From Gammaproteobacteria bacterium (GTDB lineage Bacteria; Pseudomonadota; Gammaproteobacteria; Pseudomonadales; JADFDG01), in assembly GCA_018262975.1 (NCBI GenBank), contig JADFDG010000006.1, positions 57,137-121,136 on the forward strand: a DNA stretch of 64,000 nt, in the 5' to 3' direction. Both the position numbers and the translations under genes were made by a program. Each line of letters opens with the position of its first letter. Position 1 is the stretch's first letter. Below, piece after piece: positions 14,850-18,696 of this stretch. Under the pieces are notes generated by a model. It made no database searches. It had not been told where the DNA came from and was given only the letters and a program-made list of their open reading frames with translations.

Positions 14850-15971
14850 TTACGGACGATCATCCGCCCGCAGGACCACCGCCGCCCGGACCCCGGCCTG
14901 CCCGTACCGCGACATTTTCAGGAAGCTCGCGTGCCGCACCGGCACGTACATGCTGTCGGTCACCGACTTGTGCTGCTCCACGTCGATCTCCGGGTCGTGC
15001 AGGTAGACAAAGTGCTCGTCCACCGCCACCACCAGCACCCAGTGCGGGGTCTTGGTCCGGCTGAGCAGGAAATGGCTGATCAGCACCAAGGGCAGCCCGC
15101 CGTGTTCCAGGTGGGCCCGCAGGCCGTCGATGCCCGGTGCCCGCTCATGGCGCAGGATGCGCGGCTCCGTGGCGAGCTGCGCCTCGAAGTCGGCGTGCAC
15201 GGCCTCGATGACCTTCTTCTTTACAGGATCACGTACCCCGTCCACGAACAGCGCGCCGCCCTGGTTAACGTAAAGGTCAACCACGAAACCCCGGCGGGCG
15301 GCTGCCAGCGCCAGGCCACGCGGACTGCAGCCGCCGTGCCCTGAGGTCATGAACACGGTAGTGGCCTCGCGCCACAGCTGCAGCTCGGTGGCGAGATCCA
15401 GCGGAAAACCCGGCCGCAGCGCCGCCGCGGCCATCATCAATGCGGCCGGACCACAGGTGAAACCGGTCGATTGCGCGTAATGCGGCACTTCGCGGCGCAG
15501 GCCCGCCGGAAAGCGCAGGATGCGCTTCTCGTAGCGCAACGCGTCGGTGTCGTCCTCGTAGAACCCGTGGTAGACGCCGAACTGGCGATAACCGTGCTTC
15601 TCGTACAGGCGGATGGCCGCGACGTTGTCCGGCCGCACCTCCAGGCGCATCCACGCGCAATCGGCGTCCAGCGCCGCCTCTTCGGCCGCCGCCAGCAGGC
15701 GCTCGCCGATGCGCTGGCCACGGCAATCGGGATTGACGGCCACCGAGTAGATACGTGCCAGCGACGTGCCGGCATGGAACAGCACCAGCACGTAGCCGGC
15801 CAGGCGATCTCCCGTCATCGCCACGCGCAAGGCACTGTGCGCCCGCGCGATCATCCAGTGAAAATTGCGGCGCGACAGCTGGTCGGTGGCAAAGCAGCGG
15901 TTCTCCAGTTCGAGCAACGCGTCGATATCGTCGACGGTGGCCTGGCGCAACACCAGCGATTCGCCGCTCAT
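14850..15971 (-). CDS. GNAT N-acetyltransferase fused to a C39-like cysteine peptidase
   Basis: N-terminal GNAT ('VAVNPDCRGQRIGERLLAAAEEAAL', 'IRLYEKHGYRQFGVYHGFYEDDTDALRYEK'); C-terminal C39-like 'GFTCGPAALMMA' and 'PHWVLVVAVDEHFVYLHDPE'. Confidence 0.85.
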   Translation of the reverse strand: MSGESLVLRQATVDDIDALLELENRCFATDQLSRRNFHWMIARAHSALRVAMTGDRLAGYVLVLFHAGTSLARIYSVAVNPDCRGQRIGERLLAAAEEAALDADCAWMRLEVRPDNVAAIRLYEKHGYRQFGVYHGFYEDDTDALRYEKRILRFPAGLRREVPHYAQSTGFTCGPAALMMAAAALRPGFPLDLATELQLWREATTVFMTSGHGGCSPRGLALAAARRGFVVDLYVNQGGALFVDGVRDPVKKKVIEAVHADFEAQLATEPRILRHERAPGIDGLRAHLEHGGLPLVLISHFLLSRTKTPHWVLVVAVDEHFVYLHDPEIDVEQHKSVTDSMYVPVRHASFLKMSRYGQAGVRAAVVLRADDRP

Positions 15972-17119
15972 GCCGCGACACCCCGCAGGGCCTGCAGCAG
16001 CACCTGCCGCGCCCGGAACAGCACCAGTTGCTGCCAGTCGGTGCGCGCCGGGTAAAAGTGCGCGCGCAACGCATTCTTCACCCTTTGCGTGTCCGGCGCC
16101 CGCCAGTCGACCGGTCCGGCCGCGTGCAGCAGGTGGTCGGCGCGCAGCACCGGGAACATCTGCTCCAGCGGACAGGTGCCGAATTCCAGTGTCACGAAGC
16201 AACCACGGTCGCCGAGTTCTGCGTGCCACAGGTAATCCACCAGTCCGTGCTTGGGCACCGAGGTGGACGTGCCCAGCGCCGGTTCGGTCACCGAATCGCC
16301 GTAGTACGCCCGCGCCATGGCAACGCCGGCGCTGCCCGGCGGATGGTCGCAAATCACTTCACCATAGCCGTACGGTCCCAGACCGGTATGGATGTCGACG
16401 ATGGCCACGCGTGCACGCCCGGCGAGCGCCTCGCGCACCAGCAATTCGCGCAGCACCTGCTGCGACCAGGCCGGCGCCCGGCCACCATGGAACAGCCCGT
16501 GCGGATGGCGGTACTGGCCGCCGGTCACGGCGCGCTCGAAGGCTTCCCGACCGTGCGCCTGCCGCCACGCCGCCAGCAGGTCATCGGCCTGCGCGATCAC
16601 CGCCGGGTCAGCGGACGGCGGCAGCAGCGCAGACGCCAGCGCGTCGTAGCCGGGGTTCTCCGGCAACGGCGCGGCGAAGTCGACGAAATTCCGGTTGAGA
16701 TCCACGCCCTCCTCGTTGGTGCGGCGCAGCCACGCGAACCCCCAGGGGTTGATGGCGTGGATGTGCAGCACGGCGGTGTCCGGTGGCAACGCGCCCACCG
16801 GCAGCCAGCCGAGGAAATCGGTCTGTGCCGCGGAGCCGGCAAAGCCCTCCACGCCGTGCAGCGCCGACTGGGTCACCAGCACGCGCGCGGCATCGCGCGG
16901 TCCGACCCAGGCCAGGTCCGTGGCCAGGCGCTCACCGGTCGGGCCCGCCAGCGGGTGCGCGATGCTGTGCAGTGCAGCGCCGGACCGCGCCGCCGCCTGC
17001 AGGAACCGCGCCCGCGCACCGGCGTAATCGGTCGCAAACACGGCGGTATCCAGCCCGCCGGCAGGCGGCGGCAACATGTCCGGGAGCGGGTTCACGGGAA
17101 CAGGTTCACGATTTGTCAC
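15968..17119 (-). CDS. M14-like (DUF2817-type) zinc carboxypeptidase family protein
   Basis: HxxE-like 'SALHGVEGFAG', 'DLNRNFVDF', 'VAIVDIHTGLGPYG', 'CFVTLEFGT'; 4-bp overlap with the GNAT-C39 gene. Confidence 0.7.
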   Translation of the reverse strand: MTNREPVPVNPLPDMLPPPAGGLDTAVFATDYAGARARFLQAAARSGAALHSIAHPLAGPTGERLATDLAWVGPRDAARVLVTQSALHGVEGFAGSAAQTDFLGWLPVGALPPDTAVLHIHAINPWGFAWLRRTNEEGVDLNRNFVDFAAPLPENPGYDALASALLPPSADPAVIAQADDLLAAWRQAHGREAFERAVTGGQYRHPHGLFHGGRAPAWSQQVLRELLVREALAGRARVAIVDIHTGLGPYGYGEVICDHPPGSAGVAMARAYYGDSVTEPALGTSTSVPKHGLVDYLWHAELGDRGCFVTLEFGTCPLEQMFPVLRADHLLHAAGPVDWRAPDTQRVKNALRAHFYPARTDWQQLVLFRARQVLLQALRGVAA

Positions 17120-17217
17120 GGTCCGCCAAGGCTACGGCATCGCCCCTGCCCTCGGCCACCTTGTGGCGCAGCAAGGCTGGGCCGACAATACGCGGCGCCA
17201 ACGCAGGACGGGCTGAC

Positions 17218-18696
17218 ATGTCGAAACTCATCATCGTGGTGGACAACGTCCAGGACTGGACGAGCTACTACCCCAGCGAAGACCTGATCACCGTCCAGGA
17301 CTACCTGGCCCGCAGCGGCACCTACGATGCCTCGCGCACCCAGGTCATCAACCTGTGCCGCAGTTACCGCTACCTGTCCAACGGCTACTACTGTTCGTTG
17401 CTTGCCGAAGCGCGAGACCAGCGGGTGATCCCGTCGGTGCGCACGATCAACGACCTGCGCAACAAGAGCATCTACAGCCTCGACATCGAGGATCTCAACG
17501 AGAACCTCAACAAGACGCTCGCGCGGGAGTCGCAGGAGAACCACCAGTTCACCCTGAAGCTGTTTTTCGGGCAAACGGACTTTGAACCGCTCGAGGACCT
17601 GGCCCGCCAGCTGTTCGAGCAATACCCCTGCCCCATCCTCGTCGTCGAGTTCAAGAAGACCGACGTGTGGCTGATCGAGTCGATCAAGGCCGGTGCGCTG
17701 AACAGCCTCACCGATCCCGAGGAAGACCGCTTCGCCGAGGCGCTCAACCGCTTCTCGCGCAAGATCTGGCGCAAGCCGCGCTCGCGCAAGAAATACCGCT
17801 ACGACCTCGCCATCCTCGTCAACCGCGAGGAAACCATGCCGCCGTCGGATGCCAAGGCCATTGCCACGTTCATGCGCGTGGGGCGTTCGCTGGGCATGGA
17901 CGTGGACCTGATCGGCAAGAAGGACTTCGCGCGGCTGGCGGAATACGACGCGCTGTTCATCCGCGAGACGACCGCCATCGGCAACCACACCTACCGCTTC
18001 GCGAAGAAGGCCGAGAGCGAGGACATGGTGGTCATCGATGACCCCGAATCCATCCTCAAGTGCACCAACAAGGTGTACCTCGCCGACCTGCTGAAGGCCA
18101 ACGGCGTGCCCACGCCGAAGACGGTGATCATCAGCCGCGACCGTCGCAAGGACCTCGACACGCTCGGCGAGGAACTTGGTTTCCCGCTGGTGCTGAAGAT
18201 TCCCGACGGCTCCTTCTCGCGTGGCATCGTCAAGGTCAACAGCCAGCAGGAATTGCTCGACCAGGCCGACCTGCTGTTCAAGCAGTCGTCCCTGTTGCTG
18301 GCGCAGGAGTTCTTCTACACCGAATACGACTGGCGCATCGGCATACTCAACCAGCGGCCGATCTTTGCCTGCCAGTACCAGATGGCGCGCGGCCACTGGC
18401 AGATCTATGCGCACCAGCCGTCGGGCAAGACCATCAGCGGTGATTCGCGCACCCTGCCCGTCCGCGACGCCCCGCCGGCGGTGATCCGCGCGGCAGTGAA
18501 GGCGGCCAACCTGATCGGCAACGGCCTGTACGGTGTGGACGTGAAGCAGGCCGACAGCAAGGTCGCGGTGATCGAGGTGAACGACAACCCGAACATCGAT
18601 TTCGGGATCGAGGATGCCTACCTGGGGGAGGATCTCTACCGGATCATCCTCGAGGAGTTCATCCGCCGCCTCGAACGCAAGCGCATGGGGTTCTGA
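17218..18696 (+). CDS. RimK family ATP-grasp ligase
   Basis: ATP-grasp segments 'CTNKVYLADLLKANGVPTPKT', 'LGFPLVLKIPDGSFSRGIVKV', 'VIEVNDNPNIDFGIED'. Confidence 0.85.
   Translation: MSKLIIVVDNVQDWTSYYPSEDLITVQDYLARSGTYDASRTQVINLCRSYRYLSNGYYCSLLAEARDQRVIPSVRTINDLRNKSIYSLDIEDLNENLNKTLARESQENHQFTLKLFFGQTDFEPLEDLARQLFEQYPCPILVVEFKKTDVWLIESIKAGALNSLTDPEEDRFAEALNRFSRKIWRKPRSRKKYRYDLAILVNREETMPPSDAKAIATFMRVGRSLGMDVDLIGKKDFARLAEYDALFIRETTAIGNHTYRFAKKAESEDMVVIDDPESILKCTNKVYLADLLKANGVPTPKTVIISRDRRKDLDTLGEELGFPLVLKIPDGSFSRGIVKVNSQQELLDQADLLFKQSSLLLAQEFFYTEYDWRIGILNQRPIFACQYQMARGHWQIYAHQPSGKTISGDSRTLPVRDAPPAVIRAAVKAANLIGNGLYGVDVKQADSKVAVIEVNDNPNIDFGIEDAYLGEDLYRIILEEFIRRLERKRMGF

Follow-up and report, generated by a model that had tools for sequence, protein, structure and literature searches.

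What does a locus do in which a RimK-like ATP-grasp ligase, an acetyltransferase fused to a papain-like domain and a carboxypeptidase-like hydrolase are encoded side by side? We addressed this question for positions 14850-18696 of a 64,000-nt window (the whole stretch of DNA analysed) from contig JADFDG010000006.1 of a Gammaproteobacteria bacterium; coordinates of the locus are positions within this window. Profile searches against Pfam and NCBIfam assigned the domains of three intact genes: a GNAT-DUF3335 gene and a DUF2817 gene on the minus strand, and an RLAN-ATP-grasp gene on the plus strand. Judged by sequence, the domains, the intact catalytic residues, the linkage of the genes and a dedicated DUF2817 clade are established. 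With somewhat less than even confidence, we propose that the module builds a short N-acetyl-capped peptide metabolite and can also break it down. The features of the locus are as follows.

14850..15971, minus strand: GNAT-DUF3335 (papain-like, C39-like) fusion, 373 aa (PF00583, E 1.6e-18; PF11814, E 3e-79)
14871..15488, minus strand: DUF3335 papain-like domain, residues 162-367, with Gln167, Cys173, His310 and Asp326 (PF11814)
15522..15971, minus strand: GNAT acetyltransferase half, residues 1-150, RimI / N-alpha-acetyltransferase-like (PF00583, TIGR01575)
15968..15971, minus strand: 4-bp ATGA overlap of the DUF2817 stop with the GNAT-DUF3335 start (from the sequence)
15968..17119, minus strand: DUF2817 M14-like metallohydrolase, 383 aa (PF10994, E 2.8e-108)
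17120..17217, no strand: divergent intergenic region, 98 bp (from the sequence)
17218..18696, plus strand: RLAN-domain RimK-like ATP-grasp ligase, 492 aa (PF14401, E 1.1e-54; PF08443, E 2.7e-8)
17293..17742, plus strand: RLAN domain, residues 26-175, with a conserved GYYxSLLAEAR motif (PF14401, alignment)
18067..18600, plus strand: RimK-like ATP-grasp catalytic domain, residues 284-461, with the Mg/ATP loop E453-V-N-D-N-P458 (PF08443, alignment)

These coordinates and Pfam matches agree with a preliminary description of the locus, which had named a GNAT-C39-like fusion, an M14-like gene overlapping it by 4 bp and a divergence of ~98 bp from the RimK-like gene. The 98-bp gap follows from a GTG start of the DUF2817 gene at 17119; an alternative in-frame ATG at 17077 would widen it to 140 bp. 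A promoter and terminator scan of the 98-bp gap found no sigma-70-like consensus and was uninformative.

The conserved core and its catalytic residues

RLAN neighbourhoods were drawn from class, phylum, order and named-genome searches, and their genes were mapped with models built from them. This gave 103 RLAN loci from Pseudomonadota, which are not independent samples. RLAN was detected in 81 of 398 sampled Pseudomonadota genomes (about a fifth). Among the 184 genomes of the class sample, RLAN was present in 42, a strong DUF3335 match in 29 and both in 28 (Fisher p 1.4e-21), and where both occurred, DUF3335 was nearly always adjacent to RLAN. A GNAT partner was found at 91 of the 103 loci: GNAT-DUF3335 was adjacent at 70, a GNAT without DUF3335 was present at 20, and one more locus had a GNAT-RLAN fusion whose reading frame is broken. 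GNAT-RLAN gene fusion was seen at two loci, namely this weakly resolved case and one of the 70. At nine loci a C39_2 peptidase took the place of GNAT, together with a ligase of the glutamate-cysteine ligase family (GCS2) and an N-formylglutamate amidohydrolase (FGase) in eight of them; three loci had neither GNAT nor C39_2. The invariant core is GNAT plus RLAN-ATP-grasp, with the papain-like domain usually fused to GNAT.

Individual loci showed further arrangements. In L135:6154-8157, a single open frame encodes GNAT, then RLAN, then ATP-grasp, a natural fusion of the core partners. An operon of C39_2, RLAN-ATP-grasp and GCS2, with FGase in the locus, was present in L045, L047, L052, L053, L055, L059, L061 and L066, the FGase of L045 being assigned by profile match only. 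A DUF155 (RMND1/Sif2-Sif3) gene lay near RLAN in about 14 loci, with the family checked on one member per cluster (c1: L053, L065, L109, L114, L115, L118, L124, L142 and L146; c3: L040, L108, L111, L113 and L127); a DUF155 search of the window's genome gave no match, and the same search matched in no control genome either. Genes for ribosomal protein L21 and/or L27 were located within about 3-6 kb of RLAN in L035, L134, L137 and L141. In a P. aeruginosa plasmid record (L155:5911-7500), an RLAN-ATP-grasp gene without an adjoining GNAT has pagP and an SDR gene as neighbours; judging from gene order, it is probably the PA1345 orthologue. PA1345 counts as a CpxR-motif gene by prediction only, and DAP-seq did not detect it (PMC12802237).

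Alignment of relatives showed that the catalytic residues are kept. In DUF3335, Gln167, Cys173 and His310 were found in all 70 domains, and position 326 was Asp in 56 and Glu in 14. Similarly, His88, Glu91, His244, Glu312, Asn142 and Arg143 of DUF2817, which lie in the motifs H88-x-x-E91, H244, DxN142R143N and E312, were present in 18/18 RLAN-linked proteins, and every residue of the ATP-grasp loop except V454 was present in 102/102 RLAN proteins. This conservation, as read from the alignments, is far beyond chance. The residues named in the preliminary description are therefore both present and maintained, and its proposal that the genes form one system is borne out by the pairing of RLAN with DUF3335 in 28 of the 29 DUF3335 genomes.

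The ligase matches RLAN PF14401 at 184.6 bits (cut-off 25) and falls below the cut-off of the RimK family TIGR00768 (76.3 vs 143.4 bits). In an AlphaFold2 model of the DUF2817 protein (mean predicted local distance difference test score, pLDDT, 83.6), the best folds in the PDB were carboxypeptidases A/B, followed by succinylglutamate desuccinylase/aspartoacylase (AstE/AspA). The Foldseek match to carboxypeptidases A/B was modest (E about 1e-7, template-modelling score 0.4-0.5), and AstE/AspA folds matched almost as well by E-value, so that the model does not separate a carboxypeptidase from an N-acyl deacylase. DUF2817 is thus modelled as sharing the M14 carboxypeptidase fold without being a close relative, with predicted zinc, Asn-Arg carboxylate and catalytic Glu sites. 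The model of the RLAN protein had a pLDDT of 77.8 and a predicted template-modelling score of 0.60, the RLAN half being its weak part; through the ATP-grasp part, its best PDB match was the RimK-RpsF complex (5zk6, E 2e-17), and LysX, ArgX and Ddl also matched.

The GNAT half exceeds the RimI cut-off (TIGR01575, 89.2 vs 86.4 bits). A higher-scoring RimI (116.1 bits) is encoded elsewhere in the same genome, indicating that the GNAT of the locus is a RimI paralogue. It is nearest to N-alpha-acetyltransferases, including ones of known structure, and weakly matches the synthetase of N-acetylglutaminylglutamine amide (NAGGN; TIGR03103, 31.5 bits vs cut-off 569). The fusion protein fits the DUF3335 family PF11814 by profile match, Cys-His-Asp/Glu residues and oxyanion Gln, and a Pfam scan of it found neither the C39 leader peptidase PF03412 nor an ABC domain. 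By these sequence features, DUF3335 is a papain-like family distinct from C39 leader peptidases.

Linked hydrolases and viral relatives

A metallohydrolase gene was found within 3.5 kb at 38 of the 103 RLAN loci (DUF2817 at 18, M20 at 9, FGase at 8 and M14 at 3). Since the family varies by locus, the enzyme that would undo the product appears to be interchangeable. Of the 18 DUF2817-RLAN loci, 11 come from one family (f181). The order of the window, with GNAT-DUF3335 and DUF2817 in one direction and RLAN diverging from them, recurs in L032, L065, L079, L080 and L146. In f181, GNAT-DUF3335 precedes RLAN in the same direction and DUF2817 converges on them, sometimes with one or two genes between; in L138, all three genes are co-directional.

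Within the genome collection searched, the closest relatives of the window DUF2817 (>50% identity; L079, L080 and L081) all adjoin RLAN and GNAT-DUF3335, whereas those below 45% do not. A tree built from 46 DUF2817 proteins placed the 18 RLAN-linked copies and one unlinked copy in one clade (support 96/82), and the genome of the unlinked member, L169, has RLAN elsewhere. The linkage label required two changes on this tree versus 14.4 in shuffles, and 0/500 shuffles were as low. A FastTree phylogeny of the RLAN proteins required about five changes of the DUF2817 label; DUF2817 has thus been gained or lost more than once. Genome-wide co-presence of DUF2817 with RLAN was not significant in the class sample (3/6, p 0.13) and was significant in the phylum sample (26/55, p 9e-7), in which gene coordinates put DUF2817 no more than about 4 kb from RLAN in 14 of the 26 genomes. 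These tree and linkage patterns indicate that the DUF2817 clade is a dedicated partner of RLAN loci. To the concern that the three genes might rarely co-occur, the answer is that all three stand together at 18 of the 103 loci and in several orders. The preliminary description had also counted the M14-like enzyme as a member of the set; the linked clade upholds this, but the enzyme is optional and exchangeable with M20, M14 and FGase.

Relatives of the core pair occur in viral sequences. In the IMG/VR contigs L150, L152, L153 and L154, a GNAT gene overlaps an ATP-grasp gene without an RLAN domain (L150:4570-5882, L152:4496-5903, L153:4493-5861 and L154:4624-5885), and these ATP-grasps share 33-39% identity with the window ligase over its residues about 180-485. 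In L148 and L149, apparently the same sequence, an ATP-grasp gene (42%; L148:4977-5912) lies between terminase and portal genes. L148 is taken to be a phage because of these two genes, and L150 because of a baseplate gene; the neighbours tested in L152 and L153 had no PHROG match, and one in L154 weakly matched a replication protein. Nothing in an annotated phage collection matched the L150 ATP-grasp at E 1e-15, and a scan of viral contigs with the GNAT-DUF3335 alignment gave no matches. Matches in Yersinia phages were set aside, as they are RimK-like ATP-grasps fused to a RimB-like protease domain and not RLAN proteins. One of these genes, annotated 'structural protein' in Yersinia phage vB_Yru_GN1 (L187:3881-5302), combines a RimK-like ATP-grasp with a RimB-like Zn_protease (PF05618), and YerA41 carries a near-identical gene.

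A possible capped peptide or protein tag

In the pathway that we tentatively favour, the RLAN-ATP-grasp enzyme would use ATP to convert a carboxylate to an acyl-phosphate, to which it would then join an amino acid; substrate choice would fall to the RLAN domain. Acetyl-CoA would supply the acetyl group with which the GNAT caps the alpha-amine. The papain-like DUF3335 domain with its Cys-His-Asp/Glu residues, fused to the capping enzyme, might hydrolyse or transfer an amide bond, and the zinc DUF2817 enzyme would remove a C-terminal residue or an acyl group, the product being recycled. Small (acyl-)amino acids or peptides are the typical substrates of the GCS2, FGase, M20 and M14 families, and a small N-acetylated peptide is favoured because the GCS2, FGase and M20 partners usually act on small amino-acid compounds. 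The kinship of the GNAT with N-alpha-acetyltransferases, the lack of a conserved precursor open reading frame (ORF) and the part types, which are those of the NAGGN trio, also support a small molecule. Several points weigh against a peptide metabolite. The nearest relatives of the ATP-grasp and GNAT domains, RimK and RimI, have ribosomal proteins as substrates; 65 of the 103 RLAN loci have no linked metallohydrolase; the viral contigs carry GNAT and ATP-grasp without hydrolases, an arrangement that protein modification would explain no less well; and RLAN and NAGGN loci do not exclude each other (5/9 NAGGN genomes also had RLAN, p 0.03). The substrate, step order, direction and product of the module are what we infer from its parts.

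Protein modification is the main rival, and we regard it as quite possible. RimK adds amino acids to ribosomal protein S6, and LysX and ArgX act on the carrier protein LysW. By analogy, the RLAN-ATP-grasp enzyme could add amino acids to a protein C-terminus or side chain and the GNAT could acetylate the target or the tag, while the papain-like and zinc hydrolases would remove the tag, making the tagging reversible. Modification of a protein or carrier is favoured because proteins are the substrates of the RimK, LysX and RimI relatives and because viral contigs keep the core pair, or an ATP-grasp alone, near a baseplate gene or between terminase and portal genes; the fold matches to RimK with RpsF and then to LysX and ArgX, and the RimI score of the GNAT, point the same way. 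In the parallel RimK/RimB and Rlo systems, too, an ATP-grasp ligase is accompanied by a protease (PMC12239564). Yet no conserved candidate target gene was found at RLAN loci, the ligase misses the rimK family cut-off, and the FGase, M20 and GCS2 partners resemble small-molecule enzymes. A narrower system, GNAT-DUF3335 plus RLAN only, would leave the window DUF2817 as a loosely associated peptide-scavenging gene, as might be expected from the 85 of 103 RLAN loci without DUF2817 and the many DUF2817 genes without RLAN; the single clade of RLAN-linked copies, their three gene orders and the 4-bp overlap in the window make this unlikely. A graspetide-like pathway to a ribosomally synthesized and post-translationally modified peptide, in which the ligase would modify a ribosomal precursor and the C39-like domain would cleave its leader, comes to mind because ATP-grasp ligases and C39 peptidases are common at graspetide loci (PMC8939145). 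We consider it very improbable because no conserved precursor peptide was found: when ORFs encoding 20-130 aa and lying up to 4.5 kb from RLAN were compared across all loci, no family occurred in more than three loci, and the recognisable small-ORF families were ribosomal protein L27 and cold-shock proteins. No ABC exporter recurs beside RLAN loci, and the domain is DUF3335 without a PF03412 match, so the leader-cleaving C39 role suggested in the preliminary description is not upheld.

Viewed more broadly, the GNAT and RLAN-ATP-grasp core might make an undiscovered class of acetyl-capped peptides or a reversible peptide tag, to which bacteria add interchangeable, lineage-dedicated eraser hydrolases and of which phages have captured the eraser-free writer pair; we put this forward as a possibility rather than an expectation. 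The pattern of a constant writer pair, exchangeable hydrolases and viral capture links three 'domains of unknown function' in a single pathway that can be tested. Should the product prove to be a compatible solute or a protein tag, it would add a new and widespread element to bacterial physiology.

Comparison with known systems

The neighbourhood of RLAN-ATP-grasp with GNAT-papain was reportedly described by Iyer et al. in 2009 and in the Pfam RLAN entry. Fusions of DUF3335 to GNAT domains are common, and a role as peptide ligases has been suggested for these GNAT domains (PMC10318531, citing Iyer et al. 2009). The core is thus of a known but uncharacterised kind, and the preliminary statement that no defined function exists stands, although the association is not wholly unreported. 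A literature search that lacked most subscription papers found no description of the dedicated DUF2817 clade, the hydrolase exchange or the viral pair, and these three features appear to be new. Of the RLAN/RimK-like neighbourhood, PMC10318531 confirms the GNAT-DUF3335 part.

The RloABC osmotic-stress operon (PMC12239564) likewise combines an ATP-grasp gene with a protease; neither a retropepsin-like protease (RloA) nor a 7TM-transglutaminase (RloB) was present among the adjacent window genes scanned, the rest of the genome not having been searched. RimK/RimB glutamylation of S6 shares the RimK-like ATP-grasp fold and an opposing hydrolase, whereas the window has an RLAN domain, a rimK score below the cut-off, hydrolases of other clans and a GNAT partner. 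The NAGGN osmolyte trio shares the logic of GNAT, ATP-grasp and metallopeptidase. In the window, however, the GNAT is fused to DUF3335 and not to ATP-grasp, the ligase has RLAN, and the TIGR03103 score is far below the cut-off. Replacement of NAGGN by the RLAN locus was considered and rejected: co-occurrence is slightly above chance, and one system does not replace the other because five sampled genomes carry both. In the reading favoured here, the module would work like the NAGGN trio without being a member of it.

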